64,000 bases of DNA from Rugalucina vietnamica (Eukaryota > Mollusca > Bivalvia > Lucinida > Lucinidae). Each line of letters opens with the position of its first letter. Within the stretch, counting starts at the first letter, position 1. This document shows positions 4,110 through 63,216 of this stretch, piece after piece. Location of the stretch: contig OZ024876.1 of the NCBI GenBank assembly GCA_964017185.1, forward strand, positions 15,884,226 to 15,948,225. The letters are read 5' to 3'. The notes beneath the pieces are model-generated. The model searched no databases. It worked only from the letters and a program-made list of their open reading frames with translations, and was not told where the DNA came from. The position numbers were made by a program, and so were the translations under genes.

Positions 4110-4451
4110 GTATATTTATGCAATATTTGGCAAAAGTAAACATCAGGAAAACATGTCCGTGAAATGTTTACCCACGTATACCCCACTTTTATATAGCAAA
4201 AACTGGGGTATGCAGGGGTATGCCTATTTTTCTTATTTTTGCTCCAAAACATAGATTGTGGGTACTCGTTAGAACCGCTTCGCCGAGGCGGTTCTAACGT
4301 GTACCCACAATCTATGTTTTTGAGCAAAAATAAGAAAAATATCAAACATTTTCTACTGAAAATTTTCATTTTTTACAATTTTAAAAATCACTGTATTTTG
4401 CATGGGCATGTTTTCGTAATGTATATTTCTGCAATATTTGGCAAAAGTAAA
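4110..4451. mobile_element. Hairpin element family A, copy 1, with 31-bp flanking direct repeats
   Basis: The element runs from CATCAGGAAAACATGTCCG (4141) to GGGCATGTTTTCGTAATG (4421). Its centre is a long hairpin in which CATAGATTGTGGGTACTCGT and GAACCGC face GCGGTTC and TACCCACAATCTATG. A TTTTTCTTATTTTTGCTC block flanks one arm and its complement flanks the other. A direct repeat of 31 bases with one mismatch lies on each side (4110-4140 and 4421-4451, each containing GCAATATTTGGCAAAAGTAA). Non-coding. Related copies are at 7048, 11569, 27574, 57350, 59117 and 61524. Confidence 0.8.
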
Positions 4452-5442: not shown

Positions 5443-6351
5443 CTAATTAGTTGACCCACAGAGAGCCTGTCTAAGTTCTTTACGAAACCGTTTCCCACTG
5501 AATACATACAGTAAAAAATTAACAGCGTGACTCAGGTTGATCAGATTTAGAAATAAGCTGTCAACTGCCTCGTCTATACTGTTCCCATAATATTGATCGG
5601 TCTTTAAGTCAAATATATACGGCCTTATTATTTGATATAAGAGCGCAGGAAAGTATAGCACGATAAAAGTAGTGCTAACAAGACATGTTATTATGATAAG
5701 TTGCTTCATTGTCTCCCTTTTCTTTGCTGAAAGTGCCGACTTCCTGAACCTAACAACGGTTATGATGTTGAATGACAGACTGGTAGCTGCAGGCAGTATA
5801 AAGCCGATCACAAGGTCGATCCACGTATATACAAGATAAAAGAAATTCTTGTATCCGTGACTTGTAAAAGTACATACTGTGCCTGTAGCATTTTGGCCCT
5901 CCGCAAGTGTGAATCCAAACAGCAAATGTAGATCCGCAACTGTAAATAGTGCAATAACAGAAGCGACAATAATAACTCCTGTTTTTGTTACACAAAATGT
6001 CTTGACCTTTAATGGGAAATACACAGAAAATGTCCTTTCTGCCGCTAAGACTGTTACAAGCCACACGGAGATGTGCGGTAGCGTGTAAGCTAAATAAAAG
6101 GCGAGTTTGCACCCCAAAACTCCGCTGTTTTCAAGATAGACCTCAAACGCAATCCTCAGCCATGATTGACACATATACACCAGATATGCTGAATCACATA
6201 TAGCTAAGGCGGCAAGGATCACGGTGAACGAGGTTTTCTTGGAATGTTTGTTTAATACGGTTATTAAAGTCAACACGTTTCCCACCAATCCAGTTAGGAC
6301 AATAACTGGAGTAAAATATGCCCATAACGCCTTTCCGAATTTACTTTCCAT
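5443..6351 (-). CDS. Rhodopsin-family (class A) GPCR, intronless, peptide-receptor-like
   Basis: This is a complete 302-residue seven-helix receptor in a single exon. Visible class A marks are GN in TM1 (24-25), the LAALAICDS block with Asp53 in TM2, and Cys81 at the top of TM3, which can pair with Cys160 in the second extracellular loop. Further marks are ERT (105-107) in place of DRY, TM5 Pro187, TM6 FIVLYFP with Pro235, and NFLLY (278-282) in place of NPxxY, followed by the basic FRKEL start of helix 8. TM4 lacks the usual Trp. NAT at 154 is a possible N-glycosylation site. The N-terminus is short (about 12 residues), which suits a small-peptide or amine ligand. The degenerate motifs resemble expanded lophotrochozoan FMRFamide/peptide-receptor-like families. 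It should act in the plasma membrane through G proteins; the ligand cannot be inferred. The start at MESKFG leaves a normal TM1. Confidence 0.85.
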   Translation of the reverse strand: MESKFGKALWAYFTPVIVLTGLVGNVLTLITVLNKHSKKTSFTVILAALAICDSAYLVYMCQSWLRIAFEVYLENSGVLGCKLAFYLAYTLPHISVWLVTVLAAERTFSVYFPLKVKTFCVTKTGVIIVASVIALFTVADLHLLFGFTLAEGQNATGTVCTFTSHGYKNFFYLVYTWIDLVIGFILPAATSLSFNIITVVRFRKSALSAKKRETMKQLIIITCLVSTTFIVLYFPALLYQIIRPYIFDLKTDQYYGNSIDEAVDSLFLNLINLSHAVNFLLYVFSGKRFRKELRQALCGSTN

Positions 6352-7047
6352 CAGACTGAGAGAAAATAAAACTTTATTTTGTCTGTTTAGGCTTTCTTCG
6401 ACTGTATAAAGATTTTACGGTTTGATATGTTTCCTCCAACAATTTAGTGGAATTTTGTTTTACGGTTTGGTATGTTTGTCCCAGTTTTTTAAAGGTCCGT
6501 TTTTATTGAACAATTACAATATATTTGTGGTATGTTTTCTCCAATATTATCAGTTCCTTTTTGCGGTCACTTTGGTTGTATGCTTTACAAGAATGTTTGT
6601 TTGGTTGCGCGCACTAAAAGCTTATCTTTCTATTCCGATGCATGCAAGATAAAGATGCATTGATCTTTTCTTGAAGTTTCTCAATTGTATTGCTAACTTT
6701 TCCTAATATCCGTAACTTATACGGTGCAAGCCCGCGTTCGAATTTATATATATATAGTCCTTTCGACGCTGAATAAATGAAATCAAATTATACCAAGTCG
6801 GTTCAACTGAATTGTTGGATTCGACATTACGATAATACCTCTAATCCAAATCATATCAAAGTTGGTTTTCAAATGAAAAACTTGTGACACATTTTTTATT
6901 TCTGATTTTTAAACTACATGTTTATTATATTCTACTGTGCAATACAGTTTAGGTGTGCCTGTGTCTAAGTGATGCAATTCAGAACAGTACAGCACAGTTT
7001 GCTATCAAACAAAACAAGAAATTACTTGTAAATCTACTGTTCTATTA
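6352..7047. other. 5' flank of the GPCR, probable promoter region
   Basis: No other gene was recognised. Pyrimidine-rich imperfect repeats containing TTACGGTTTGATATGTTT and TTTACGGTTTGGTATGTTT (6415-6545) recur about 50 bases apart just upstream of the receptor start. A core promoter cannot be assigned. Confidence 0.4.
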
Positions 7048-7325
7048 CATCAGGAAAACATGTCCGTGAAATAAATACCCCCGTATACCCCACTTTTATA
7101 TAGTAAAACTTGGGTATGCAGGGGTATACCTATTTTTCTTATTTTTGCTCCAAAACATAGATAGTGAGTACTCGTTAGAACCGCCTCGTCGAGGCGGTTC
7201 TAACGTGTACCCACAATCTATGTTTTGAGCAAAAATAAGAAAAATATCAACATTTTTCTCACGAAATTTTCAATTTTTACAGGTGAGAAATTCTCTGTAT
7301 ATTGCATGGGCAAATTTTCGTAATG
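7048..7325. mobile_element. Hairpin element family A, copy 2
   Basis: It runs from CATCAGGAAAACATGTCCG to CAAATTTTCGTAATG. The central hairpin is TACTCGTTAGAACCGCCTCG against CGAGGCGGTTCTAACGTGTA. Unlike copy 1 it is not flanked by a long direct repeat. Non-coding. Confidence 0.8.
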
Positions 7326-7845
7326 TTGGAAAAAAGAGAGAGAAATGGGACATAAATTCCATAGATGATTATCATCATGGTGTACCTCAAAGTTCTTTTA
7401 CGTTAATACTGGTCATTTCAGTTTGCTAATTGAAAAAGAAAAACAACTTTTGTACAAAGGAAATACGCTAATCAGTACAACTCATAATTAGGCACCAGCA
7501 TCACTAAAGACAAGGATAACCACATCAATTATATTAAAATACAAGCCCAAGTAACGTAATTAAGGGATATCAATGCGAGATACCAAATTACTAAGCTTGA
7601 TTCTTAGGAAAATTGGATATATGACTGGAGTTCAAAGGGACATTTGCCTAAACCGAGGTCGTTAAAAGGACATCTCCTGTACATACCGGAAGTATTAGTA
7701 ACTCTTTTCATTTTTGTTGAAAATTGTACTTTCAGATGTCCAGTGTTCTGGGATTAATATAAGTATAATAAATTCAAGAAGATCTGTATCAAAAGTGCAG
7801 AAATTGGTCATGGTCAACGATCAATAATTTAGCTTGAGTCCAAAC
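7326..7845. other. Intergenic, nothing recognised
   Basis: No gene or shared repeat was recognised. Confidence 0.4.
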
Positions 7846-16236: not shown

Positions 16237-16527
16237 TTGATTTCCAAATATAATGTTGGGTTAAAGACGCTTTTAAGTGAGGGCCTTTCGGAACCTGAAT
16301 TTTATGGTGACTTGGTTTACAAATTTAAGAAACTTATAGGAATTAATGATTTTTCTTTTCAATTCAGAAAAATCATAACACGTTACAGACGTATAGATTA
16401 TAACTTGAATGTTATGCGACAGTCTGCATGCTTAGTTTTTAACCCAATCATGGTTGATAACTATGCTGCCTTCTTTAATTGCACGCCGGTAGGTCGGGCG
16501 TCAGACTCTATGATGGCCCCGACTTAA
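16237..16527 (+). pseudogene. Penelope-like RT C-terminal fragment
   Basis: The frame encodes the C-terminal region after the reverse transcriptase domain (SKYNVGLKTLLSEGL and VDNYAAFFNCTPVGRASDS). It matches the minus-strand copy at 21450-23330. The catalytic region is absent because the copy is 5'-truncated, so it cannot make an active enzyme. The stop after SDSMMAPT is shared with the copy ending at 23902, so this is probably the true end of the family protein. Confidence 0.75.
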
Positions 16528-16687
16528 AGCTATTCATTTTAGTTGGTTGGGGCCGGAGCTTCTTGTCTGTTGCTTGGCCCACCGGGGTTCAACTGGTGTT
16601 TTTCTTTTGCTCCGGAGTTAGTAGGTTATTCGGCACCCAAGGATCTCCATCGTCGGGCAGCTTACTCAATCTGTGAGTCCTGGGTTT

Positions 16688-16789: not shown

Positions 16790-16898
16790 GAACCACTGCA
16801 GAAGCTGAGGGTGAGGTTAGGCGCCTGTAAAACCGGTTTAAGCCCGCCAGTAACTTTGTGTTACTGATCGTTCCAAGGCGATACTTCTGTGGTGGTTC
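16790..16898 (+). ncRNA. Structured RNA domain of Penelope-like element, copy A
   Basis: About 109 nt are closed by a 15-bp helix, GAACCACTGCAGAAG against CTTCTGTGGTGGTTC, with two G-U pairs. Inside are CTGAGGGTGAGG, the palindrome AGGCGCCT (16819-16826), GTAAAACCGGTTTAAGCCC, a hairpin AGTAAC/GTTACT and a hairpin ATCG/CGAT. Five copies in the window vary while preserving the pairs. It is not a recognised hammerhead: no CTGANGA plus GAAA core is present. Its function is unknown. Confidence 0.6.
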
Positions 16899-17230
16899 TT
16901 TTTGTTTTATGTCTTGGTGTTTAAATTTTTTTTGTGCTGTTGGCGCCTTGTGTGTGTTTTCATAGTTTTGGTTAAGTTAAGGTAACTGAGTGGCCACCTT
17001 TTGGGAAAATAGCTGCTCATTCGGCTTACGATATGTTTCATGGTATATAAGTACCTGATTGTTAGTTTGGTTTTTTCCCACCTCGGTTTTTGGAGTGGGA
17101 ATCTTTTTCTGATTGTGCCTTTTCCTGATCTTTGCCTACTTGTACCTTTTTTCACATTGGTTTTCGGAGTGGGAATTTCTGATTGCACCATTTCCTCTAA
17201 TCATCATCATTGCATACTTTTTTCCTTTTC

Positions 17231-20105: not shown

Positions 20106-20114
20106 TTATAAGTG

Positions 20115-20981
20115 TAGAGGGTTCCGTGCGACGAGCTTGTCCACATATGATTTTTCTACTCTGTATACAACTTTACCACATAATCTAATTAAAGAAAAAC
20201 TTCTGGATTTGATAGAGTGGACCTTCAAAAGGGCATTAAAAAACTATGGTTCACTTTATTTGGCATGTAATGACAGAAAGGCTTTTTTCACATCCTCTGA
20301 CCAAAGTCGGTATACACTTTGGTCATGTCAGAATGTGTGCGACGCCTTATCCTATCTCCTGGATAATATTTATATTAGATTTGGGACCAAGTTATACAGA
20401 CAAATTGTTGGAATTCCGATGGGTACAAATTGCGCACCTCTCGTAGCTGATTTATTTTTATACTGCTACGAAAGAGATTTCATGGATTCTCTTAACCATG
20501 ATAATCAAGCTGATGTTATCGAGGCTTTTAATTCCACTTCTAGGTACCTCGATGACCTTTTGAACATTGACAACCCTTATTTTGAAGGTATGGTCAATCA
20601 AATTTATCCATCTGAACTACAGTTGAACAAAGCCAATATCTCGGATACCGAAGCCCCCTTTTTAGATCTACATCTTTCTGTTGCAAATGGATTTGTTTCT
20701 TCTAAAATTTATGATAAGCGCGATGACTTTGATTTTGATATAGTAAATTTTCCGTTTTTGGATGGTGACGTTCCTCGTCGTGCTTCTTATGGTGTATACA
20801 TTTCGCAACTTATTAGGTTTGCTAGAGTCTGCAATCATGTTACAGACTTCAACGCTCGAAATAAATCTTTAACGGCCAAACTTCTCCAACAGGGCTATCG
20901 GTATCATAAACTTCAAAAAACCTTTTCTAAATTTTATCGTAGACACTATGAATTGATTTCCAAATATAATGTTGGGTTAAA
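20115..20981 (+). mobile_element. Penelope-like element, left part of split host copy
   Basis: This copy starts at GTGTAGAGGGTTCCGTGCGA, at the codons just before the RT core. It continues to GTTGGGTTAAA, where an antisense copy of the same family begins. Its coding sequence resumes at 23636. The 5' part is missing. Confidence 0.85.
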
Positions 20982-20994
20982 AAGGTACAAGTAG
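20137..20994 (+). pseudogene. Penelope-like reverse transcriptase, interrupted by a nested insertion
   Basis: The frame carries the RT core: TYDFSTLYTTLPH near residue 3 (first catalytic Asp), GIPMGTNCAP near 92 and RYLDDLLNID near 136 (catalytic YLDD-type box). The PFLDLHL to QLIRFARVC region of Penelope-like RTs follows. It reads out of the family sequence after SKYNVGLK and stops within four codons because the antisense element starts there. The N-terminal 210 or so residues of the family protein are absent, so no intact product is expected. Confidence 0.85.
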
Positions 20995-21227
20995 GCAAAG
21001 ATCAGGAAAAGGCGCAATCAGAAAAAGATTCCCACTCCAAAAACCGAGGTGGGAAAAAACCAAACTAACAATCAGGAACTTATACCATGAAACAATAGTA
21101 AGCCGAATGGGCAGCTATTTTCCCAACAGGCGGCCACTCAGTTACCTTAACTTAACTAAAAATATGAAAACATACATAAGGCGCCAACAGCAAAAAAAAA
21201 ATTAAACACCAAGACATAAAACAAAAA

Positions 21228-21336
21228 GAACCACCACAGAAGTATCGACTTGGAACGATCAGTAACACAAAGTTACTGGCGGGCTTAAACCGGTTTTACA
21301 TGGCCATAACCTCACCCTCAGCTTCTGCAGTGGTTC
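21228..21336 (-). ncRNA. Structured RNA domain, copy B
   Basis: Minus-strand copy of the domain described at 16790. The 8-base box reads ATGGCCAT (21300-21307), again a perfect palindrome although half its bases differ from copy A. Outer helix and inner hairpins are intact. It ends about 250 nt before the element's 3' end. Confidence 0.6.
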
Positions 21337-21449
21337 ATAACATTTAGTTAGTTATTCGGTCCTCGTGGTGAATCTCTAACTAGTCAATGAATCATCAAGA
21401 ACAAACAAATAAATCATGATAAACATCCTGATGAATCAAAAACCAGGAC

Positions 21450-23330
21450 TCACAGACTGAGTAAGCTGCCCGACGATGGAGATCCCTGGGCGCCGAATAA
21501 CCTACTAACTCCGGAGCAAAAGAAAAACACCAGTTGGACCCCGGTGGGCCAAGCAACAGACAAGAAGCTCCGGCCCCAACCAACTAAAATGAATAGCTTT
21601 ATGTCGGGGCCATCATAGTCTGACGCCCGACCCACCGGCGTGCAATTAAAGAAGGCAGCATAGTTATCAACCATGATAGGGTTAAAAACTAAGCATGCAG
21701 ACTGTCGCATAACATTCAAGTTATAACCTATACGTTTGTAACGTGTTATGATTTTTCTGAACTGAAAAGAAAAATCATTAATTCCTTTAAGTTTCTTACA
21801 TTTGTAAACCAAGTCACCATAAAATTCAGGTTCCGAAAGGCCCTCACTTAAAAGCGTCTTTAACCCAACATTATATTTGGAAATCAATTCATAGTGTCTA
21901 CGATAAAATTTAGAAAATGTTTTTCGAAGTTTATGATACCGATAGCCCTGTTGGAGAAGTTTTGCCGTTAAACATTTATTTCGAGCGTTGAAGTCTGTAA
22001 CATGATTGCAGACTCTAGTAAACCTAATAAGTTGCGAAATGTACACACCATAAGAAGCACGACGAGGAACGTCACCATCCAAAAAAGGAAAATTTACTAT
22101 ATCAAAATCAAAGTCATCGCGCTTATCATAAATTTTAGAAGAAACAAATCCATTTGCAACAGAAAGATGTAGATCTAAAAAGGGGGCTTCAGTATCTGAG
22201 ATATTGGCTTTGTTCAACTGAAGTTCAGGTGGATAAATTTGATTGACCATACCTTCAAAATAAGGGTTGTCAATGTTCAATAGGTCATCAAGGTACCTAG
22301 ATGTTGAATTAAAAGCCTCGATAACATCAGCTTGATTATCATGGTTAAGAGAATCCATGAAATCTCTTTCGTAGCAGTATAAAAATAAATCAGCTACGAG
22401 AGGGGCGCAATTTGTACCCATCGGAATTCCAACAATTTGTCTGTATAACTTGGTCCCAAATCTAATATAAATATTATCCAGGAGATAGGATAAGGCGTCG
22501 CACACATTCTGACATGACCAAAGTGTATACCGACTTTGGTCAGAGGATGTTAAAAAAGCCTTTCTGTCATTACATGCCAAATAAAGTGAACCATAGTTTT
22601 TTAATGCCCTTTTGAAGGTCCACTCTATCAAATCCAGAAGTTTTTCTTTAATTAGATTATGTGGTAATGTTGTATACAGAGTAGAAAAATCATATGTGGA
22701 CAAGCTTGTCGCACGGAACCCTCTACACTTCAATTTACTGAGCACCTCACCAGAATTTTTAATTGACCAAAACCAATTTTTATTTGAAGTTTCATACACT
22801 GTCTCACAGTATCTTATAACATGAGATTTGATAGCAGTAAGACAGGAAGTTAATAATTTAGAAAGTTCAGTGGTAGTACAAGAGCTAGAATTTGCAATAA
22901 ATCTAGCTTTGTATGGTCTTTTGTGAAGCTTAGGTAACCAATACATCGTAGGAAGTTTGTCTTGGCCTTCATTGACACAAACAGAAAACTTAACAGGTAA
23001 ATCGTTTAAGTGGGCATTAACTACAGACACCTCATCAGTATCTGTCTCCAGATAAGCCCTGGTACCATCAAGCTCCTGTTTTAAGGTGTTAACGTAGTGA
23101 AGCATACAAACGACAACACCATTGTTTGCGGCTTTATCTGCCGGAACCAAGACACACTTTCTATGAAATTCTTGGATACCCTGCTTTAAATGCCTAAATG
23201 ACGATTTGGGTTTAGGAGGTAAAAGATTAGTATTTTGTGAATAAAACTTAATACGTTTATCCACGATAGTGAAGATACTTCTTTTCCATTCTTTAAGAGC
23301 ATTATCCTCAACACCCTCTCGTTTACACAA
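21450..23330 (-). CDS. Penelope-like reverse transcriptase (ORF, probably not intact)
   Basis: The 626 residues from the first Met contain VPADKAANN (62-70), YWLPKLHKRPYKARFI (130-145, the LPK.HK motif typical of Penelope-like RTs), STYDFSTLYT (211-220), GIPMGTNCAP (301-310) and RYLDDLLNID (345-354). The enzyme would copy element RNA into DNA at a nicked target. The frame is open upstream of this Met as far as an in-frame TGA at about 23520, with family-like residues on both sides, so the true protein is longer. Near the C-terminus, loss of two bases after VGRASD shifts the frame and replaces the family ending SDSMMAPT with about 45 foreign residues. It is probably a recently active copy carrying two lesions. 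Confidence 0.8.
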   Translation of the reverse strand: MCKREGVEDNALKEWKRSIFTIVDKRIKFYSQNTNLLPPKPKSSFRHLKQGIQEFHRKCVLVPADKAANNGVVVCMLHYVNTLKQELDGTRAYLETDTDEVSVVNAHLNDLPVKFSVCVNEGQDKLPTMYWLPKLHKRPYKARFIANSSSCTTTELSKLLTSCLTAIKSHVIRYCETVYETSNKNWFWSIKNSGEVLSKLKCRGFRATSLSTYDFSTLYTTLPHNLIKEKLLDLIEWTFKRALKNYGSLYLACNDRKAFLTSSDQSRYTLWSCQNVCDALSYLLDNIYIRFGTKLYRQIVGIPMGTNCAPLVADLFLYCYERDFMDSLNHDNQADVIEAFNSTSRYLDDLLNIDNPYFEGMVNQIYPPELQLNKANISDTEAPFLDLHLSVANGFVSSKIYDKRDDFDFDIVNFPFLDGDVPRRASYGVYISQLIRFTRVCNHVTDFNARNKCLTAKLLQQGYRYHKLRKTFSKFYRRHYELISKYNVGLKTLLSEGLSEPEFYGDLVYKCKKLKGINDFSFQFRKIITRYKRIGYNLNVMRQSACLVFNPIMVDNYAAFFNCTPVGRASDYDGPDIKLFILVGWGRSFLSVAWPTGVQLVFFFCSGVSRLFGAQGSPSSGSLLSL

Positions 23331-23515
23331 TCGATTACCGAAATCATTTAATGCAGATGAAATCTCCTCTCTACATTTGTCGAAATTAATGTAGGAAGGG
23401 AATCTATATTTCGGACCTTTAGAAACAATTTTGCGAATTCTAGAATCCGAAATTATTTTTAAATTTCCAGTAACAATATGTCCAGCGGGTTGATAAACAT
23501 ATTTTGAATCTTTAC

Positions 23516-23527
23516 AATCTCAAAACT
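23516..23527 (-). other. In-frame TGA upstream of the PLE frame
   Basis: Reading minus, the codons run AAG TTT TGA GAT TGT AAA, where family members that I recall have Trp before Asp-Cys-Lys. A second, more decayed copy has TCT TGA GAT TGT at about 36652. A shared TGG to TGA change in a common source copy is the simplest reading. Confidence 0.5.
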
Positions 23528-23686
23528 TAGGAGTACTAGCATGGATATCAAGATCAGAAACAAGTTTATTGAAATTAAAAATTGTATTTCTGATTGGTTT
23601 GTTATATTTGTAACAAATAATAGGAGGTTCTGAATTTAAAGACGCTTTTAAGTGAGGGCCTTTCGGAACCAGAACTTTATGGTGAC

Positions 23687-23902
23687 TTGGTTTACAAATT
23701 TAAGAAACTTATAGGAAGTAATGATTTTTCTTTTCAGTTTAGAAAAATCATAACACGTTACAGACGTATTGGTTATCACTTGAATGTTATGCGACAGTCT
23801 GCATGCTTAGTTTTTAACCCAATCACGGTTGATAACTATGCTGCCTTCTTTAATTGCACGCCGGTGGGTCGGGCGTCAGACTCTATGATGGCCCCGACTT
23901 AA
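23687..23902 (+). pseudogene. Penelope-like RT C-terminal fragment (right part of split copy)
   Basis: The frame VYKFKKLIGSNDFSFQF to TPVGRASDSMMAPT plus stop continues the protein broken at 20994. Joined in the genome before the nested insertion, the two would have formed one reading frame. It is now separated by 2.65 kb. Confidence 0.8.
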
Positions 23903-24164
23903 AGCTATTCATTTTAGTTGGTTGGGACCGGAGCTTCTTGTCTGTTGCTTGGCCCACCGGGGTCCAACTGATGTTTTTCTTTAGCTCTGGAGTTAGTAAG
24001 TTATTTGGCGCCCAGGGATCTCCATCGTCGGGCAGCTTCCTGAATCTGTGAGTCCTGGTTTTTGATTCATCAGGATGTTTATCATGATTTATTTGTTTGT
24101 TCTTGATGATTCATTTACTAGTTAGAGATTCACCACGAGGACCGAAGAACTAACTAAATGTTAT

Positions 24165-24273
24165 GAACCACTGCAGAAGCTGAGGGTGAGGTTACGGCCG
24201 TGTAAAATCGATTTAAACCCGCCAGTAACTTTGTGTTACTGATCGTTCCAAGTCGATACTTCTGTGGTGGTTC
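24165..24273 (+). ncRNA. Structured RNA domain, copy C
   Basis: Same architecture as copy A. The 8-base box is ACGGCCGT (24194-24201), still a perfect palindrome. The neighbouring AAACCGGTTT of other copies reads AAATCGATTT, also self-complementary. Confidence 0.6.
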
Positions 24274-24559
24274 TTTTTGTTTTATGTCTTGGTGTTTAAA
24301 ATATTTTGTGCTGTTGGCGCCTTATGTATGTTTGCATATTTTTAGTTAAGTTAAGGTAACTGAGTGGCCACCTATTGGGGAAATAGCTGCTCATTCGGCT
24401 TACGAAATGTTTTCATGGTATAAGTACCTGATTGTTAGTTTGTTTTTTTTCCCATCTTGGTTTTTGGAGTGGGAGTCTTTTTCTGATTGCGCCTTTTCCT
24501 GATCTTTGCCTTCTTGTACTTTTTTTATTTATTTTGCCCAATCACAACATTTTTCTTTT

Positions 24560-27573: not shown

Positions 27574-27852
27574 CATCACGAAAACATGTCCGTGTAATGA
27601 ATACCCCGTTGAACCCCACTTTTATATGGCAAAACTGGGGTATGCAGGGGTATACCTATTTTTCTTATTTTTGTTCCAAAACATAGATTGTGGGTACTCG
27701 TTAGAACCGCCTCGCTGTGGCGGTTCTAACGAGTACCACAATCTATGTTTTGGAACAAAAATAAGAAAAATGTCAAAAATTTTCAGCTGAAAATTTCCAA
27801 TTTTTAAAGCTCATAAAATCTCTGTATATTGCATGGGCAAGTTTTCGTAATG
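27574..27852. mobile_element. Hairpin element family A, copy 4
   Basis: It runs from CATCACGAAAACATGTCCG to GCAAGTTTTCGTAATG. The central hairpin pairs TACTCGTTAGAACCGCCTCG with its near-complement around GCTGTGGC, and ACAATCTATGTTTTGGAAC faces GTTCCAAAACATAGATTGT. Confidence 0.8.
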
Positions 27853-28155
27853 TGTTATGTTATCAGCATGTTTAAAAACTTTTGGTATTACTGGATTACT
27901 GGTTGTGGACATTCTGATCCCCTATAGACGTCTGTTTAAAAAGGCTTGTATACCGAATTGTATACATATACATGTGTCGTCTCGCAGCATTTAAATGATC
28001 CATTTTTCTTTCTTGAATATTATCCAGAAATTCAATTCAGTAGTTTTATTAAAGTCTCATGTTGATATACAAACAATTATAAACATCAATATTACTACTG
28101 AGAACCACGTGGTATTGTATACATACAAACCGATAAATGATCGGTGACATTCTGC

Positions 28156-33330: not shown

Positions 33331-33552
33331 ATTTCTTTTTATTTCTTAATAGAAACAACTTAGGAGGATGGTTGGTCATTCATCTTTTGACTTTGTGACA
33401 CTGACTTGTGTGACATGACGGTAAGGGTCGGTTGACCTACTTTCCATGGTTCAGTGATTTTGCCTTATATCTTGACACTCAATTAGTATATTTTCTTACT
33501 TCTTTCAGATTATGAGTTAGTACGACCAGGCCTTTGACCCCAATATATTTAT

Positions 33553-33567
33553 AGGTCACTGTGACCT
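33553..33567. promoter_or_regulatory. Consensus oestrogen-response-type palindrome (IR3), first of a series
   Basis: AGGTCACTGTGACCT is two AGGTCA half-sites inverted with a 3-base spacer, identical to the consensus oestrogen response element. It recurs at 33680, 33808, 33936, 34065 and 34194. Close variants are at 34322, 34425, 34553 and 34681. Sequence match only. Confidence 0.55.
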
Positions 33568-34193
33568 AATTTCACGGTTCAGTGATTTTGCCTTATATCT
33601 TGACACTCAATTAGTATATTTTCATACTTTTTCAGATTATGAGTGAGTATGACCAGACCTTTGACCCCAATATACTTATAGGTCACTGTGACCTAATTTC
33701 ACGGTTCAGTGATTTTGCCTTATATCTCGGTACTCAAATGGTTTATGAACAAACTTCTTTCAAAGTATGTTTGCGTATGACAAGACCTTTGACCCTGAAG
33801 TAGTCCTAGGTCACTGTGACCTAATTTCACGGTTCAGTGATTTTGCCTTATATCTTGACACTCGATTAGTATATTTTCATACTTTTTTCAGATTATGAGT
33901 GAGTATGACCAGACCTTTGATCCCAATATACTTACAGGTCACTGTGACCTAATTTCACGGTTCAGTGATTTTTGCCTTATATCTCGGTACTCAAATGGTT
34001 TATGAACAAACTTCTTTCAAAGTATGTTTGCGTATGACAAGACCTTTGACCCTGAAGTAGTCCTAGGTCACTGTGACCTAATTTCACGGTTCAGTGATTT
34101 TGCCTTATATCTTGACACTCAATTAGTATATTTTCATACTTTTTTTCAGATTATGAGTGAGTATGACCAGACCTTTGACCCCAATATACTTAT

Positions 34194-34208
34194 AGGTCAC
34201 TGTGACCT
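34194..34208. promoter_or_regulatory. IR3 palindrome, sixth perfect copy
   Basis: Identical 15-base box AGGTCACTGTGACCT, the last perfect one. Later units carry CAATATG or CAGTGTG spacers or a GGGTCA half-site. Confidence 0.5.
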
Positions 34209-34952
34209 AATTTCACGGTTCAGTGACTTTGCCTTATATCTCGGCACTCAAGTGGTTTATGAACAAACTTCTTTCACACTATGTTTGCGTATGACAAGAC
34301 CTTTGACCCTAAAGTAGTCCTAGGTCAATATGACCTTTATATCTCGGCACTCAATTGGTATATGAACATACTTCTTTCACGATATGTATGAGTATGACAA
34401 GACCTTTGACCGTAAAGTAGTCCTGGGTCACTGTGACCTAATTTCATGGTTCAGTGATTTTGCCTTATATCTCGACACTCAGTTGGTATTTTTTCATACT
34501 TCTCTCTGATTATGAATGAGTATGACCACACCTTTAACCCAAACATACTTATAGGTCAATATGACCTAATTTCATGGTTCAGTGATTTTGCTTTATATCT
34601 CAGTACTGAATGGGTATATGATCATTTTTCTTTCACATTATGAGTAAGTATCACTAGACCTTTGACCCTGCAATACTTATAGGTCAGTGTGACCTTTTAT
34701 CACGGTTCAGTGATTTTGCCTTGTGTCTTGGCACTCATTTAGTATATGAACACACTTCTTTCACAATATGAGTGAGACCTTTGAATCTTAGGTAGTTATA
34801 GTTAACTTTCATGGTTGTGATTTTGCCTTATTGCATCAAGGCAAAAAGACGTGAGCATAATGCTTTGGGTTAGGTTACTGGTCGGGTTTGGCCTTATGTT
34901 TGACAAAGGTCAGAAGCAGTCGAGCACGCTGTCCTGCGACAGCTCTTATATA

Positions 34953-37080: not shown

Positions 37081-37122
37081 ACTGAATGATAGTTCGTCTC
37101 TCACTAATGAGAAAGACCATCA

Positions 37123-38208
37123 TTATTTCTTGAATAGTGCTGATGTGTGTTGGTGAGTTCTTTGATGGCTGACTAGGCCAATTCTGGCTCTAAACTGTCG
37201 GTTGCAAGTAGAGCAAGTCAATGTCATAGAGTCTGATGGTGGCACATTTGTTTTGGCTTTGCGCTCTCTTCGCTTTCTTTCAGCTTCACAGATTCTCTTC
37301 TTTTCATAAAGAGCTGCTCCTTTGTTGATGAGACCTCGCCACTTTGATTGCTCCTGTGCAGTCTGTTCCCAGGACCCCATTGGTATTTCGAAATCCTTCA
37401 GAGAGGCTTTGAGGGTGTCTTTGTAGCGTTTCTTCTGGCCACCTTGAGAGCGCTTTCCCTCCTGTAGTTCTCCATAGAAAACTTTCTTTGGAAGTCGCGC
37501 ATCAGGCATTCTTATAACATGGCCAGTCCATCTTAGCTGTGCTAGCTTTAAGACTGTATGCATGCTTTGCATCCCTGCTTTCGTCAGGACCTCTGTGTCT
37601 GGAATCTTGTCCTGCCACTTGATTTTTAACAACTTTCTCAAACAGCTTAAGTGGAAATGGTTAAGTCTCTTTGCATGGCGTTGGTATACTGTCCAGGTCT
37701 CACATGCATACAAGAGGGTTGGCAGTACCACAGCCTTGTAGACTTTCAGCTTGGTGTCAAGCTTGATTCCATTTCGCTCCCAGACATTTGCACGGAGTCG
37801 TCCGAATGCCACACTAGCCTTTGCAATTCTGGCAGTGATCTCATCATCAATATGCACTGCTCTGGAGAGAGTGCTTCCCAGGTAGGTGAACTTGTCAACA
37901 ACTTTCAGTTTTTGCCCATTCACAATGATTGTTGGTTCATTATATGGCTTTCCGGGCGCTGGTTGGTGTACAACCTCTCTCTTTTTTGTGCTGATTGTGA
38001 GATCATAGTTATCACATGACTGTGAGACTTGATCCATGGCTCTTTGCATTTTTGCCTCTGTGCTGGCATTCTTATCCATATCATCTGCATAGAGGAGCTC
38101 ATCTAGCACATCAGTCTGGACCTTAGTTTTGGCTTGCAACCTTCTGAGGTTGAATATGTTGCCATCAAAACGGTACCTGATTGGAAAACCAGTGTCACTG
38201 TCCTGAAA
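37123..38208 (-). pseudogene. Non-LTR RT C-terminal half with C2H2 finger (copy 1)
   Basis: It encodes the RT from shortly before the LLYADDMDKNA catalytic box through the thumb (TYLGSTLS, LLYACETWTVYQRHAKRLN, RWTGHVIRMPD) and a basic tail. It ends in C-x2-C-x12-H-x3-H (CSTC, then SHQRTH). The frame ends at the family stop TSALFKK. Its upstream part is separated by an inserted Penelope-like tail, so no full enzyme can be made. Confidence 0.85.
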
Positions 38209-38244
38209 AGCATCACGAGGACCGAAGAACTAACTAAATGTTGT

Positions 38245-38351
38245 GAACCACTGCAGAAGCTGAGGGTGAGGTTAGGTACCTGTAAAACCGGTTTAAGCCC
38301 CCCAGTTATTTTATAACTGACCGTACCAAGGCGGTACTGCTGTTCTGGTTC
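38245..38351 (+). ncRNA. Structured RNA domain, copy D (most diverged)
   Basis: The box reads AGGTACCT (38274-38281). The first hairpin is AGTTAT/ATAACT in place of AGTAAC/GTTACT, two paired changes. The second is ACCG/CGGT in place of ATCG/CGAT, one paired change. The outer helix is kept at its base (GAACCA/TGGTTC) and weaker above. Confidence 0.6.
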
Positions 38352-38583
38352 ACACTTATCAAAGTTATTCCAATTACGAGTTTCATGTTGCATGGCTTTG
38401 TGACCACCCGAATATAATGGCTGTTCACTTAGCCCTCTGCATTTACTTGTTCTGTCCAAGCTAGCACTGTGACCACCTAATACCTTCAATAGCTGCTCAC
38501 TCTGCTTTCCGTTATTCATGTTAAACGTTGGTATCTATGTTTAGTATTTTCTTAATATGATTTCTTATTTCTTGTTTATCACT

Positions 38584-38692
38584 GAACCACTACAGAAGCT
38601 GAGGGTGAGGTTAGGTACCTGTAAAACCGGTTTAAGCCCGCCAGTAACTTTGTGTTACTGATCGTTCCAAGTCGATACTTCTGTAGTGGTTC
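38584..38692 (+). ncRNA. Structured RNA domain, copy E
   Basis: The outer helix GAACCACTACAGAAG/CTTCTGTAGTGGTTC is perfect Watson-Crick over 15 bp; the positions that are G-U in copy A are A-U here. The box is AGGTACCT. Inner hairpins match copy A. Confidence 0.65.
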
Positions 38693-38938
38693 TTTTTGTT
38701 TTATGTCTTGGTGTTTAAAATTTTTTGTGCTGTTGGCGCCTTATGTATGTTTTCATATTTTTAGTTAAGTTAAGGTAACTGAGTGGCCACCTATTGGGAA
38801 AATAGCTGCTCATTCGGCTTACGATATGTTTCATGGTATAAGTACCTGATTGTTAGTTTGGTTTTTTCCCACCTCGGTTTTTGGAGTGGGAATCTTTTTC
38901 TGATTGCGCCTTTTCCTGATCTTTGCCTACTTGTACCT

Positions 38939-39335
38939 TTCCATAGGCATGGCAGAAAACATCATGCTGAACAGTGTTGGTGCCAGAACACAGCCTTGTT
39001 TGACCCCATTTGTTACTTCAAATGGTTCAGAGAACTCTCCATCATTTTGCACACGTGCCTGCATGCCATCATGAAACTGCCGCACCATTGCTATGAATCT
39101 GGGTGGACAGCCAAACTTGGCCATGATTTTCCAGAGTCCATCACGACTAACAGTGTCAAAAGCTTTGGTGAGGTCAACAAACGCCATGTATAGATCTACA
39201 TTCTGTTCTTGGCATTTCTCCTGAAGCTGTCTTGCTGTGAATATCATGTCTATTGTCCCTCTGTCTCTTCTGAATCCACATTGACTTTCTGGGATAAGTC
39301 CCGTCTGATCAAGATGAACATTCAGACGATTCAAC
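38939..39335 (-). pseudogene. Non-LTR RT central fragment (copy 1)
   Basis: It encodes NRLNVHLDQTGLIPESQCGF, FVDLTKAFDTVSRD (first catalytic Asp) and NGVKQGCVLAPTLFSMMFS. It is cut on one side by the Penelope-like tail and on the other by a frameshift in a T-run where copy 2 reads AKILLNRLN. Confidence 0.8.
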
Positions 39336-39779
39336 AGAATTTTTTAAAATTATCTTCCCAGCAATTGATAGGAGGGAGATGCCTCTGTGATTGTCACAGA
39401 CTTGAGGATTTCCTTTCCGCTTGTATAGGTGGATTATGGATGCATCCTTAAATTCTTGTGGGATAGCCTCCTTTCTCCACATACAGTGAAACAACTCTGT
39501 CAGTTTCTCTGCCATGGGTAGCCCCCCAGCCTTGTAAACTTCGGCAGGAATTGCATCTGCACCTGGGGCTTTGCCAGATGATAGTTGTTGAACTGCTTTT
39601 CTTGTTTCCGTAACGGTAGGAAATTCATCTAACAGAACATTGCACTCTATCTGTGGAAGTCTGTCGATTGCATCCTCATTGATGCTTGATGGTCGATTAA
39701 GCACACTATTGAAGTGTTCTGCCCACCTTTCCAAGATAGCTTCTTTATCTGTGAGAAGAGTGTTTCCATCTGCACTGAG
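39309..39779 (-). pseudogene. Non-LTR RT N-terminal fragment (copy 1)
   Basis: The frame contains AVQQLSSGKAPGADAIPAE, LTELFHCMWRKEAIPQEFK and HRGISLLSIAGKI, the early fingers of the RT. A TAG just upstream (in ATT.TAG.CTC order, where copy 2 has TTG) separates it from the endonuclease, and the frameshift near 39340 ends it. Confidence 0.8.
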
Positions 39780-41118
39780 CTATGTGGTGGCTCCAGAACT
39801 CTTTGGACCATAAATGGTTTTCAGTGCATCATGAAATTTCTTCATGTCCTTTCTATCCGCAAAAGACTGAATTTCTTCTGTTTTCTTCCTCAGCCAGGAA
39901 TCTTGCATGTCCCTAAGCTTGGTCTGGACTGTCTTACAAATGTTGCTGTAGGCTGCTTTCTTTGATACTGAGCTAGTATCATCTTGATGTGCCTTGTGCA
40001 ATCGGTGCTTTTCTTCAAGAAGCCTCTGAATTTCGTCATCATTCTCATCAAACCAGTCTTGATGTTTGCGAGATGGATGGCCTAAGGTGCTTGCAGCTGA
40101 AGAAAGAACTGTTTTATGGAAAACTGTCCAGTTTTCTTCGGGGTCCTCTGAACTGAGATTCATTGCATCCAGTTGGTTGCAAATGTCTGTTAAGAAATCT
40201 TGTCTCATGCTGTCTTTATTCAGCTTTGAGACATCCAGTCTCTTAGGAGCTTTCTTGCCTTGAGGTCGCCTCGCAGGCTGTATTCTTAGGTTGAGTTTGC
40301 TGACAACCAGTCTATAATCTGTCCAGCAGTCTGCACCACACATAGTCTTTGTCACTTTAACATCCTGCCTGTCTGTTCTCCGCACTATGGCATAGTCTAT
40401 GAGATGCCAGTGTTTGGAACGGGGATGCATCCAGGATGTTTTGTTCCTATTAGGTAGACGGAAGACTGTGTTGGTGATTAGAAGGTCATGTTCAGCACAC
40501 TTCCTGAGAAGCAAGAGACCATTGCTGTTGCACTTTCCAACCCCTTCTGGACCTATAACTCCTTCCCAGGTCTGGTGGTCTGTACCCACTCTGGCATTAA
40601 AGTCGCCAAGAAGGATAAGCTTGTCTGTGCGGGGTGTTGCAGAAATAACATTGTCTAGGTCATCATAGAACTTGTCCTTGACCTCATCTGGATTGGTCAT
40701 TGTGGGTGCATAAGCACTGACAATAGTTGCATGTTTATTGCCTGACAGAGGAAGTCTCAATGTCATTAGACGGTCATTAATGCCTTTTGGCAATCCTGAC
40801 AGCTTACCAACAAGTTCTGTTTTGATGGCAAAGCCAACTCCTGCTTCACGCCTCTCTTCACTTTTGCGTCCACTCCAGAAGAAGGTGTATCCAGCACCAA
40901 CTTCTTTGATCTCCCCAACATCTGCGAACCGAGTCTCACTCAATGCAGCTATCTGTATATCATACCTCCCAAGTTCTCTGCCCACAAGGGCCGTTCTACG
41001 CTGTGGTCTATCTGACCCAGCATTGTCCATTAAAGTACGCACATTCCATGCGCCAATCCGTAAGGGAATTACTCTAGCTTTTTTCTTTGTATTTCGACCG
41101 CTTAAGGGGATCCCCGCT
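39780..41118 (-). pseudogene. Non-LTR endonuclease domain and linker (copy 1)
   Basis: The frame is open upstream of the first Met at 41042 and reads IPLRIGAWNVRTLMDNAGSD. This is the usual start of APE-like endonucleases (the Asn of WNVRTL is a catalytic residue). It continues with LSETRFADVGE, GVGFAIK, SAYAPT and LILLGDFNARVG. The expected DHRLV box reads DYRLV here, a missense change at a catalytic His compared with copy 2. A premature TAG ends the frame at 39780. Confidence 0.85.
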
Positions 41119-45574: not shown

Positions 45575-45808
45575 GAAGTTTTGTGCTGTTTGAACCTTAT
45601 GTATATGTACGTTTTCATATTTTTATTTAAGTTCGGGTGACGTGGAGTGGTCGTCTATTGGGAAAAAGCTGCTCACTCGGCTTACGATATGTTTTCTAAG
45701 TATAAGTATCTAATTGTCAATTTAGTTTTTCCCACCTCGAATTTTGGAGTTAAAATTTCTTTCTGGTTGCGCCTTTTCCTGATCATTGCCTACTTGTACT
45801 TTTTCCCT
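45575..45808 (+). mobile_element. Penelope-like 3'-tail fragment
   Basis: TTTTGTGCTGTTTGAACCTT, GGGAAAAAGCTGCTCACTCG and CCTTTTCCTGATCATTGCCT followed by ACTTGTAC give the last 230 or so bases of the element. The structured RNA domain is not included. Confidence 0.75.
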
Positions 45809-50164: not shown

Positions 50165-50171
50165 GCAATAT

Positions 50172-53122
50172 GATAGTTCGTCTCTCACTAATGAGAAAGA
50201 CCATCATTATTTCTTGAATAGTGCTGATGTGTGTTGGTGAGTTCTTTGATGGCTGACTAGGCCAATTCTGGCTCTAAACTGTCGGTTGCAAGTAGAGCAA
50301 GTCAATGTCATAGAGTCTGATGGTGGCACATTTGTTTTGGCTTTGCGCTCTCTTCGCTTTCTTTCAGCTTCACAGATTCTCTTCTTTTCATAAAGAGCTG
50401 CTCCTTTGTTGATGAGACCTCGCCACTTTGATCGCTCCTGTGCAGTCTGTTCCCAGGACCCCATTGGTATTTCGAAATCCTTCAGAGAGGCTTTGAGGGT
50501 GTCTTTGTAGCGTTTCTTCTGGCCACCTTGAGAGCGCTTTCCCTCCTGTAGTTCTCCATAGAAAACTTTCTTTGGAAGTCGCGCATCAGGCATTCTTATA
50601 ACATGGCCAGTCCATCTTAGCTGTGCTAGCTTTAAGACTGTATGCATGCTTTGCATCCCTGCTTTCGTCAGGACCTCTGTGTCTGGAATCTTGTCCTGCC
50701 ACTTGATTTTTAACAACTTTCTCAAACAGCTTAAGTGGAAATGGTTAAGTCTCTTTGCATGGCGTTGGTATACTGTCCAGGTCTCACATGCATACAAGAG
50801 GGTTGGCAGTACCACAGCCTTGTAGACTTTCAGCTTGGTGTCAAGCTTGATTCCATTTCGCTCCCAGACATTTGCACGGAGTCGTCCGAATGCCACACTA
50901 GCCTTTGCAATTCTGGCAGTGATCTCATCATCAATATGCACTGCTCTGGAGAGAGTGCTTCCCAGGTAGGTGAACTTGTCAACAACTTTCAGTTTTTGCC
51001 CATTCACAGTGATGGTTGGTTCATTATATGGCTTTCCGGGCGCTGGTTGGTGTACAACCTCTGTCTTTTTTGTGCTGATTGTGAGATCATAGTTATCACA
51101 TGACTGTGAGACTTGATCCATGGCTCTTTGCATTTTTGCCTCTGTGCTGGCATTCTTATCCATATCATCTGCATAGAGGAGCTCATCTAGCACATCAGTC
51201 TGGACCTTAGTTTTGGCTTGCAACCTTCTGAGGTTGAATATGTTGCCATCAAAACGGTACCTGATTGGAAAACCAGTGTCACTGTCCTGAAAAGCATCCA
51301 TAAGCATGGCAGAAAACATCATGCTGAACAGTGTTGGTGCCAGAACACAGCCTTGTTTGACCCCATTTGTTACTTCAAATGGTTCAGAGAACTCTCCATC
51401 ATTTTGCACACGTGCCTGCATGCCATCATGAAACTGCCGCACCATTGCTATGAATCTGGGTGGACAGCCAAACTTGGCCATGATTTTCCAGAGTCCATCA
51501 CGACTAACAGTGTCAAAAGCTTTGGTGAGGTCAACAAACGTCATGTATAGATCTACATTCTGTTCTTGGCATTTCTCCTGAAGCTGTCTTGCTGTGAATA
51601 TCATGTCTATTGTCCCTCTGTCTTTTCGGAATCCACATTGACTTTCTGGGATAAGTCCCGTCTGATCAAGATGAACATTCAGACGATTCAACAGAATTTT
51701 TGCAAGTATCTTCCCAGCAATTGATAGGAGGGAGATGCCTCTGTGATTGTCACAGACTTGAGGATTTCCTTTCCGCTTGTATAGGTGGATTATGGATGCA
51801 TCCTTAAATTCTTGTGGGATAGCCTCCTTTCTCCACATACAGTGAAACAACTCTGTCAGTTTCTCTGCCATGGGTAGCCCCCCAGCCTTGTAAACTTCGG
51901 CAGAAATTGCATCTGCACCTGGGGCTTTGCCAGATGATAGTTGTTGAACTGCTTTTCTTGTTTCCGTAACGGTAGGAAATACATCTAACAGAACATTGCA
52001 CTCTATCTGTGGAAGTCTGTCGATTGCATCCTCATTGATGCTTGATGGTCGATTAAGCACACTATTGAAGTGTTCTGCCCACCTTTCCAAGATAGCTTCT
52101 TTATCTGTGAGAAGAGTGTTTCCATCTGCACTGAGCAATGTGGTGGCTCCAGAACTCTTTGGACCATAAATGGTTTTCAGTGCATCATGAAATTTCTTCA
52201 TGTCCTTTCTATCCGCAAAAGACTGAATTTCTTCTGTTTTCTTCCTCAGCCAGGAATCTTGCATGTCCCTAAGCTTGGTCTGGACTGTCTTACAAATGTT
52301 GCTGTAGGCTGCTTTCTTTGATACTGAGCTAGTATCATCTTGATGTGCCTTGTGCAATCGGTGCTTTTCTTCAAGAAGCCTCTGAATTTCGTCACCATTC
52401 TCATCAAACCAGTCTTGATGTTTGCGAGATGGATGGCCTAAGGTGCTTGCAGCTGAAGAAAGAACTGTTTTATGGAAAACTGTCCAGTTTTCTTCGGGGT
52501 CCTCTGAACTGAGATTCATTGCATCCAGTTGGTTGCAAATGTCTGTTAAGAAATCTTGTCTCATGCTGTCTTTATTCAGCTTTGAGACATCCAGTCTCTT
52601 AGGAGCTTTCTTGCCTTGAGATCGCCTCGCAGGCTGTATTCTTAGGTTGAGTTTGCTGACAACCAGTCTATGATCTGTCCAGCAGTCTGCACCACACATA
52701 GTCTTTGTCACTTTAACATCCTGCCTGTCTGTTCTCCGCACTATGACATAGTCTATGAGAAGCCAGTGTTTGGAACGGGGATGCATCCAGGATGTTTTGT
52801 TCCTATTAGGTAGACGGAAGACTGTGTTGGTGATTAGAAGGTCATGTTCAGCACACTTCCTGAGAAGCAAGAGACCATTGCTGTTGCACTTTCCAACCCC
52901 TTCTGGACCTATAACTCCTTCCCAGGTCTGGTGGTCTGTACCCACTCTGGCATTAAAGTCGCCAAGAAGGATAAGCTTGTCTGTGCGGGGTGTTGCAGAA
53001 ATAACATTGTCTAGGTCATCATAGAACTTGTCCTTGACCTCATCTGGATTGGTCATTGTGGGTGCATAAGCACTGACAATAGTTGCATGTTTATTGCCTG
53101 ACAGAGGAAGTCTCAATGTATT
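50172..53122 (-). mobile_element. APE-type non-LTR retrotransposon, copy 2 (RTE-like), 5'-truncated
   Basis: The 3' end (plus-strand GATAGTTCGTCTCTCACTAA) matches copy 1. The 5' end breaks off inside the endonuclease at about 53118. GCAATAT occurs on both sides (50165-50171 and 53123-53129) and is probably the target duplication, with four filler bases at the 5' junction. 5' truncation with a short target duplication is the signature of target-primed reverse transcription. Confidence 0.85.
50207..53116 (-). CDS. Non-LTR endonuclease/reverse transcriptase (RTE-like), 969 residues, N-truncated
   Basis: A single open frame contains the C-terminal half of the APE endonuclease: SAYAPT (15-20), GDFNARVG (52-59) and DHRLV (148-152). 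A linker follows, then the RT: SSGKAPGADA (394-403), HRGISLLS (458-465), FVDLTKAFD (527-535), NGVKQGCVLAPTLF (584-597) and LLYADD (646-651). The protein ends in a C2H2-type finger (Cys940, Cys943, His956, His960), which may bind nucleic acid. The endonuclease nicks target DNA and the RT copies element RNA there. The first 85 or so residues of the domain (starting IGAWNVRTL in copy 1) are missing, so the first Met used here is internal and the copy is dead for autonomous movement although its RT frame is intact. Copy 1 differs by few residues. Confidence 0.9.
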   Translation of the reverse strand: MRLPLSGNKHATIVSAYAPTMTNPDEVKDKFYDDLDNVISATPRTDKLILLGDFNARVGTDHQTWEGVIGPEGVGKCNSNGLLLLRKCAEHDLLITNTVFRLPNRNKTSWMHPRSKHWLLIDYVIVRRTDRQDVKVTKTMCGADCWTDHRLVVSKLNLRIQPARRSQGKKAPKRLDVSKLNKDSMRQDFLTDICNQLDAMNLSSEDPEENWTVFHKTVLSSAASTLGHPSRKHQDWFDENGDEIQRLLEEKHRLHKAHQDDTSSVSKKAAYSNICKTVQTKLRDMQDSWLRKKTEEIQSFADRKDMKKFHDALKTIYGPKSSGATTLLSADGNTLLTDKEAILERWAEHFNSVLNRPSSINEDAIDRLPQIECNVLLDVFPTVTETRKAVQQLSSGKAPGADAISAEVYKAGGLPMAEKLTELFHCMWRKEAIPQEFKDASIIHLYKRKGNPQVCDNHRGISLLSIAGKILAKILLNRLNVHLDQTGLIPESQCGFRKDRGTIDMIFTARQLQEKCQEQNVDLYMTFVDLTKAFDTVSRDGLWKIMAKFGCPPRFIAMVRQFHDGMQARVQNDGEFSEPFEVTNGVKQGCVLAPTLFSMMFSAMLMDAFQDSDTGFPIRYRFDGNIFNLRRLQAKTKVQTDVLDELLYADDMDKNASTEAKMQRAMDQVSQSCDNYDLTISTKKTEVVHQPAPGKPYNEPTITVNGQKLKVVDKFTYLGSTLSRAVHIDDEITARIAKASVAFGRLRANVWERNGIKLDTKLKVYKAVVLPTLLYACETWTVYQRHAKRLNHFHLSCLRKLLKIKWQDKIPDTEVLTKAGMQSMHTVLKLAQLRWTGHVIRMPDARLPKKVFYGELQEGKRSQGGQKKRYKDTLKASLKDFEIPMGSWEQTAQERSKWRGLINKGAALYEKKRICEAERKRRERKAKTNVPPSDSMTLTCSTCNRQFRARIGLVSHQRTHQHTSALFKK

Positions 53123-57262: not shown

Positions 57263-57349
57263 TTTTTCAAATATTGGTTATATCTAATACATATTTCTCT
57301 ATATTTCATCACTTGCCATATAATAAATACGACTTGGGTGTAAGGGATA

Positions 57350-63213: not shown

Positions 63214-63216
63214 GAT

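Follow-up and report, generated by a model that had tools for sequence, protein, structure and literature searches.

Retroviruses and Ty elements characteristically dimerise their RNA. Penelope-like elements (PLEs) are relatives of telomerase reverse transcriptase (RT), and we know of no particle for them. Among PLEs, the Naiads of Craig et al. (2021) reportedly encode an N-terminal GIY-YIG-like endonuclease, a CxC motif and an RT, carry TGA codons together with a SECIS, and occur as tandem and inverted copies. To our knowledge, Naiads are described as being without hammerhead motifs, and we know of no account of them that describes the 3′ domain or the palindrome reported below. Their hosts include clams and spiders. 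Literature searches on twisters, Naiads and retrotransposon kissing loops listed no description of this domain; the original Naiad paper may contain one.

In structured retroelement RNAs, the short self-complementary loops of HIV-1 SL1 and MoMLV and the mutually complementary kissing loops of Ty1 have been proposed to start dimerisation (PMC516450, PMC5454406). The domain analysed here is akin to both kinds of signal but is set apart by lying in the 3′ UTR of a PLE. The HIV-1 palindrome is called remarkably conserved (PMC516450), whereas the letters of the corresponding hexamer in our domain are hypervariable. Dimeric action has also been described for newt and viroid hammerheads (PMC6155905) and, according to the title of a work cited in PMC10085705, reported for PLE-associated hammerheads. 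Like Penelope-like hammerheads, the domain is a structured RNA near the element end, and its fold is different. Twister ribozymes of types P1, P3 and P5 have been described, and activity was kept when P1 was deleted (PMC5408937). The protein of PAc, a related element and predicted to be a dimer, both cleaves and extends the two DNA strands (PMC11167929).

We analysed a window of 64,000 nucleotides of the Rugalucina vietnamica genome, in which five copies of the domain, all in the sense strand of a Penelope-like element, were found (Table 1).

Table 1. Positions of the domain copies, their parts and the associated element features in the window.
Feature	Position	Strand	Detail
Domain copy A, 109 nt	16790..16898	+	hexamer GGCGCC
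Domain copy B	21228..21336	-	hexamer TGGCCA
Domain copy C	24165..24273	+	hexamer CGGCCG
Domain copy D, diverged, 107 nt	38245..38351	+	hexamer GGTACC
Domain copy E	38584..38692	+	hexamer GGTACC
Outer helix of copy A (P5 here), 5′ strand / 3′ strand	16790..16804 / 16884..16898	+	
First inner arm of copy A, domain positions 20-56	16809..16845	+	two cis alternatives fit about equally
Hypervariable self-complementary hexamer of copy A, domain positions 31-36	16820..16825	+	proposed kissing site
Hexamer in the other copies	21301-21306 (-), 24195-24200, 38275-38280, 38614-38619		
Second palindrome of copy A	16830..16839	+	AAACCGGTTT; other copies: AAATCGATTT
Hairpin AGTAAC/GTTACT of copy A	16848..16866	+	closing C-G; P3 if twister-like
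Hairpin ATCG-TTCCAAGG-CGAT of copy A	16867..16882	+	P4/L4 if twister-like
3′-terminal region, domain to element 3′ end	16899..17152	+	about 250 nt
SECIS_1 upstream of copy A	16502..16569	+	39.0 bits
SECIS_1 upstream of copy C	23877..23944	+	35.8 bits
Stop-to-stop frame of copy B, RT, TGA read through	21348..23699	-	783 aa; motifs UDC, GIPMGTNCAP, YLDD
Insertion with copies D and E inside a LINE	38215..38940	+	

The element whose 3′ UTR contains the domain is best explained as a Naiad of selenoprotein type, the kind of PLE whose endonuclease is N-terminal. The name Naiad rests on characteristic motifs because a Pfam search of the element frames gave nothing above cut-off; protein searches with the RT frame gave no useful match. 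The frame of copy B contains YDFSTLYTTLP, GIPMGTNCAP and YLDD, which we take to be RT motifs, and its first ~60 nt span the junction with the inverted copy C near 23636. Four TGA codons were identified in this frame, one of which (UDC) lies in the RT part, while the other three lie past the frame ends of copy A and of L038, a longer copy elsewhere in the genome. From its 5′ end, L038 carries SDLDU...LVYVLTU, a frame shift, VGCNVGQT...RFGEH (presumably the GIY-YIG-like endonuclease), UDC and the RT; the order of endonuclease, UxC linker and RT is accordingly seen, by motif resemblance, in this one copy with its single frame shift. UDC takes the place of CxC in both B and L038, and two more in-frame TGA codons occur in the endonuclease region of L038. 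SECIS_1 scored above the Rfam gathering threshold at two places in the window and at ten places in nine of the ten fetched loci L029-L038, and the element therefore combines TGA within the coding frame with a SECIS, as a selenoprotein variant would. It resembles Naiads in the apparent order of endonuclease, CxC (here UxC) and RT, in the TGA codons with a SECIS, and in the tandem and inverted copies.

The element is ordered as ORF, SECIS, ~220 nt, domain, ~250 nt and 3′ end, with the domain at 2425-2533 when copy B is used as reference; the initial annotation had likewise assigned a structured RNA to the 3′ region of such an element. In 20 of the 22 loci shown, the main copy has its end at reference position 2778-2783 (the exceptions are L024 at 2742 and L027 at 2672), and the fragments at 45579-45804, 53517-53614 and 59303-59412 share this common 3′ end. 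Unlike the 3′ ends, the 5′ ends vary among the 22 loci. L036 and L038 have a 5′ end in common, TATAACCGGTATGAG, which in L038 lies by arithmetic ~3.9 kb upstream of the expected 3′ end; no domain copy was found adjoining the 5′ end of either. A common start at reference position 1985 was observed in L005, L008, L026 and L028, whose hexamer is GGATCC or GGATCT, and this group is possibly a non-autonomous subfamily.

To describe the domain across the genome, we used a search that gave 1101 candidates, 40 of them scored. Twenty-three of these 40 places were read, namely the window's own, L005, L008 and 20 fetched ones, and for ten of these a wider stretch was added. A covariance model gave 46 matches in 23 sources, 41 of them on the sense strand, and an E cut-off of 1e-14 kept 39 copies, removing all five matches on the antisense strand as well as two partial copies with weak scores. 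The alignment used for covariation contains the 23 distinct rows of these 39 copies from one genome. With 23 of the 40 scored places and their neighbourhoods read out of 1101 candidates, the sample is biased to young copies, and the E-values and shuffle counts given below ignore the relatedness of copies. Relatives of the domain were also sought in viral contigs by pattern and by RT protein, and no match was obtained.

In the domain, a long helix closes a junction from which two conserved hairpins and a hexamer-bearing third arm emerge. The 15-bp outer helix folds in copies A, B, C and E, with z values of -4.6 to -5.6 and none of 200 shuffles as stable, while in copy D it is interrupted and the fold stands out less (z -1.5, a stability reached by 16 of 200 shuffles). 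With the palindrome pairs included, standard pairs occupy 97.4% of 872 pair cells in the 39 copies (23 distinct) compared with 93.4% in shuffles, and the covariation score of the whole domain is 0.159 compared with 0.077, a value as high as the observed one being reached by 0 of 500 shuffles. Among the 23 distinct rows, six pairs are changed on both sides, as against 4.0 in shuffles (a value equalled or exceeded in 10 of 500); for further pair types, the whole domain shows no excess over shuffles (303 of 500 as high). In the same rows, 95.7% of the cells are paired in the hairpin at 59-77, with two double-changed pairs, and 100% in that at 78-93, with one, so that both hairpins are backed by compensatory changes. 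The outer helix has 96.8% of its cells paired and zero double-changed pairs. Its columns 8/105 hold UG in 16 rows, UA in two and unpaired bases in five, and its columns 9/104 hold GU in 22 and AU in one. These G-U pairs are kept and sometimes become Watson-Crick pairs, which points to RNA rather than DNA as the acting molecule. An alignment fold recovered the same helices and two short ones in the first arm, from an alignment that was itself built with that structure.

The initial annotation had listed the five copies with their places and strands, and all are present; its outer helix and two inner hairpins are real, the 15-bp helix being confined to A, B, C and E; and the compensatory changes that it had read in copy D, two pairs in AGTAAC/GTTACT and one in ATCG/CGAT, are there. 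Copy E does change two G-U pairs of the outer helix, one of them to A-U as it had said and the other to U-A. Its claim of covariation between paralogues is borne out by the score for the 39 copies.

In six diverged copies, the conservation of the domain was compared with that of its 100-nt flanks. It exceeds that of either flank in three: L032:6530 (95/109 identical against 73/96 and 71/87), L025:247 (98/109 against 50/71 and 63/90) and copy D (91/107 against 68/96 and 57/100). In L036:9289, L034:9733 and L032:5882 the domain is no better conserved than both flanks, and some of the poor flanks are possibly unrelated DNA.

The strongest covariation of the whole domain was identified in its most variable part, a hexamer in the first inner arm, which the initial annotation had overlooked. 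As in a kissing loop, the sequence is self-complementary: the palindrome is perfect in 37 of the 39 copies, with six different sequences, and relies on G-U pairs in the remaining two. The hexamers are GGATCC in 15 copies, GGCGCC in nine, GGTACC and TGGCCA in five each, CGGCCG in two, and GGGCCC, GGATCT and TGGCCG in one each, the last two being palindromic via G-U pairs; GGGTCC, again palindromic with G-U, is found in the partial copy L034:9259, which is not among the 39. In the 23 distinct sequences, all 69 of 69 cells of columns 31-36 are paired. Double-changed cells number 22 compared with 6.3 in shuffles, and the covariation score is 0.82 compared with 0.14, neither value being reached in 500 shuffles. 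Neither the number of pairs nor the number of pair types exceeds the shuffled values, which are as high in 427 and 151 of 500 cases. The hexamer signal therefore depends on the cell and score measures, which are inflated by relatedness. All four self-complementary kinds of centre dinucleotide occur among the 23 distinct sequences (CG seven, GC seven, UA five, AU four), and four hexamer columns account for 623 of 2608 pairwise differences (24%). Even among the 29 copies that otherwise match copy A at 97% identity or more, there are four different perfect palindromes and one GGATCT copy. On a poorly resolved tree of the flank sequences, the eight hexamer states need 11 changes, the minimum possible being seven. 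When the pairing partner was slid along the sequence, the score fell to 0.009-0.077 at five of the six slides, and a slide of -3, which leaves a single pair only, scored 0.73. For the six perfect hexamer loops, the computed self duplex is stronger than that with the best other partner by 2.3-7.3 kcal/mol. Because the adjacent middle bases are unable to pair in cis, and because a protein would select letters, it appears to be self-complementarity itself that is selected. We conclude from the pattern of letters that the hexamer is probably under selection for self-pairing between two molecules or two copies.

The arm that carries the hexamer has no settled cis fold, an uncertainty that the initial annotation missed or understated. 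In single-sequence ensembles of the 23 sequences, P(21-55) ranges from 0 to 0.72 and P(27-44) from 0 to 0.32, and the mean unpaired probability of the hexamer ranges from 0.18 to 0.73. A stem displaying the hexamer is given by the alignment fold and is not favoured in the single-sequence ensembles. Neither candidate cis pairing of the arm shows covariation above shuffles. The helix GGTG-A-GGTT/AGCC-CGCC, which is the minimum-energy fold of the arm in several copies and yet lacks covariation, was set aside, and a twister-like pairing of the arm is no better than this helix by shuffles. A second palindrome follows the hexamer, and its columns 44/47 change jointly (CG in 16 and UA in seven of the 23 distinct rows); this change on both sides perhaps occurred once or a few times only.

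Based on the covarying hexamer, we propose, at a probability of about one half, that the domain is an RNA homodimer (kissing) signal resembling the retroviral dimer initiation site. The hexamer would be displayed in a loop of the transcript and would pair with its identical counterpart in a second RNA or, alternatively, in a second domain copy within a tandem transcript, giving a kissing homodimer in which like would pair mainly with like. More weakly, the dimeric RNA might be the form that the element's RT/endonuclease binds, and two templates might thereby be delivered to the two cut strands. As the PAc protein acts on both DNA strands and is a predicted dimer, two templates would be useful, and two-template delivery would fit the inverted and tandem pairs of these elements. 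The data suggest that the element RNAs may recognise and hold their sister RNAs. If this is true, dimerisation in a Penelope-like element would suggest a second origin of the process, and it would offer a reason for inverted and tandem insertions. A loop that stays palindromic although its sequence turns over resembles a code for self-recognition among competing subfamilies, and the domain is a concrete candidate for a structured RNA of Naiads.

Inverted and tandem element copies are frequent among the fetched sequence, and the hexamers of linked copies can be compared. Copies D and E, which share one insertion, both carry GGTACC, a single matching pair that is no proof. Different hexamers were found in B and C (TGGCCA with CGGCCG), in the head-to-head pair of L011 (TGGCCA with GGCGCC), and in neighbours at L035 (GGCGCC with CGGCCG) and L038 (GGATCC with GGCGCC). 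A rule that linked copies share their hexamer, which holds for D/E and fails for B/C, L011, L035 and L038, was therefore rejected. Such unlike hexamers do not suit a strict rule by which the templates of one insertion would pair like with like.

Whether the domain belongs to a known ribozyme class was considered against the same evidence. The initial annotation had found no hammerhead core, and indeed no Rfam hammerhead reaches gathering in the window or in the ten loci; no Rfam family does so over the domain, the only such matches in the window being the SECIS elements ~220 nt upstream. Its suggestion of a different, possibly new RNA agrees with this result at threshold, but the best sub-threshold match in four of the five copies is to a known class, twister-P1. 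This match begins at UAA and spans GCC, both hairpins and the CCAAG loop, and has the best E-value of the weak Rfam matches in copies C (23.3 bits, E 0.0031), B (20.8, E 0.017), E (20.2, E 0.025) and A (17.7, E 0.52). Weak matches to pistol, SECIS_4, a snoRNA and other families (E 1.5-9.7) are at chance level. The domain could be a self-cleaving twister ribozyme in the circularly permuted arrangement of type P5, perhaps acting as a dimer, and would replace the Penelope-like hammerhead, with the outer helix as P5, GGGU/RCCC as P2, GAGG as the 3′ strand of L1, UAA with its U-A step at 16839/16840 as the cleavage site, GCC as L2, the two hairpins as P3 and P4, and UUCCAAGG as L4. The upstream GGGU-GAGG would supply the missing 3′ strand of L1, as the type-P5 permutation requires, and the domain and type-P5 twisters (Rfam clan CL00120) have in common the order P5, P2, P3, P4, the UAA step, GCC and the CCAAG loop. 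A descriptor of type P5 made from the Rfam consensus scored 24 of 27, a value that none of 10,000 dinucleotide shuffles and none of 8,085 background pieces attained (highest 22); its rarity is overstated because the descriptor was written after the match was seen. When the outer helix is included, scores are 28-30 for the window copies and at most 27 over 378,804 background bases (both strands). Other segment orders give 18-21 in copy A, and P2, P3, P4, P5, L1, L2 and L4 are correctly ordered with L4 of the correct length; a circular order permitted for twisters, with the UAA, GCC and L4 core, is thus present by a descriptor that followed the match.

Nevertheless, we regard this assignment as unlikely. 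The best score of 23.3 bits is far from the twister-P1 gathering score of 67.2, copy D has no twister-P1 match at all, and the twister-P5 model is absent from the matches, in which a weaker clan member at an overlapping position would be masked. The type P1 order and one unnatural order also reach 21 with the descriptor, as do two of 300 shuffles. The pseudoknots, with partners assigned provisionally, are incomplete and without covariation: the T1 pairs form in 23, 22 and one of the 23 rows, and the T2 pairs in 22 and nine. No standard P1 forms next to UAA. A 4-bp stem, 26-29/42-45, is paired in 98.9% of cells, leaves a longer L1 and is not favoured energetically, and copy A in its twister-like fold is 4.1 kcal/mol less stable than at its minimum (-39.8 compared with -43.9). 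Moreover, cleavage would cut off the 3′ end that insertion requires, and the 5′ ends of the full-length L036 and L038 lie elsewhere than the candidate cleavage site. A combination of this fold with pairing between molecules seems improbable to us: here a dimeric, circularly permuted twister-like Naiad RNA would use the hexamer as a subfamily self-recognition tag, only RNAs of the same subfamily would pair, fold the core and serve as (or be cleaved as) RT templates, and this would replace the hammerheads of Penelope-like elements.

The template-recognition signal listed in the initial annotation is compatible with our data. In its plain form, the domain would be a binding site for the element's own RT/endonuclease that works without RNA dimerisation, as the R2 protein reportedly binds a structure in its 3′ UTR. 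The constant distance of ~250 nt to a 3′ end fixed in 20 of 22 loci, together with variable 5′ ends, is the pattern of initiation near the 3′ end, and it speaks for such a site, as do the three of six diverged copies in which the domain outconserves both flanks; the other three speak against it. The PAc protein also requires a defined RNA segment and initiates internally at a stem-loop (PMC11167929). A binding site alone, however, leaves unexplained a hexamer that is hypervariable in letters and invariant in symmetry, and we hold it to be rather unlikely as a full account. Constant symmetry with changing letters would suit DNA as well as RNA, and with inverted and tandem copies so frequent, the palindrome might act in cDNA or genomic DNA, by strand annealing or as a cruciform, during tandem or inverted insertion. 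The outer-helix G-U pairs that are retained or converted to Watson-Crick pairs, and the place of the domain on the sense strand between the SECIS and the 3′ end, make such pairing at the DNA level very unlikely. That the hexamer has no function, being variation among paralogues with a chance symmetry, is hardly credible. The copies are related, the cells are not independent and the shuffle counts are not probabilities; but six different perfect palindromes, at least seven changes of hexamer state, no asymmetric state beyond G-U in 39 copies and the collapse of the score at most partner slides all argue against it. Regarding the overall interpretation of the initial annotation, the fold, position and covariation stand, but the strongest covariation points to RNA-RNA self-recognition, which was not among the roles that it listed, and a kissing signal is the reading that we prefer.

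The insertion that carries copies D and E interrupts the first of two LINE copies (37086-40763 and 50170-53119) that are >99% identical, and the uninterrupted second copy represents the empty site, with the junction near 51297-51298. No clear target-site duplication was found at this insertion, the overlap being 2 nt at most. The stretch 20110-24526 is made of complex Naiad pieces in plus/minus/plus orientation, in which the 5′ ends of B and C meet near 23636. Elsewhere in the window, a dispersed repeat of ~280 bp occurs at 4140-4422, 7047-7326, 27574-27853 and 57349-57633, the latter three being 82-89% identical to the first, and 33500-34420 holds overlapping open frames with repeated units, for example DQTFDPNILIGHCDLISRFSDFALYLDTQLVYFHTFF, that look like a minisatellite. 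Two open frames on the minus strand were also noted, one of 323 aa at 5443-6414 that resembles a seven-helix receptor and a glycine-rich one at 62932-63372 (SAFGQAMGNHIKAHD...) that resembles an attacin-type antimicrobial protein.
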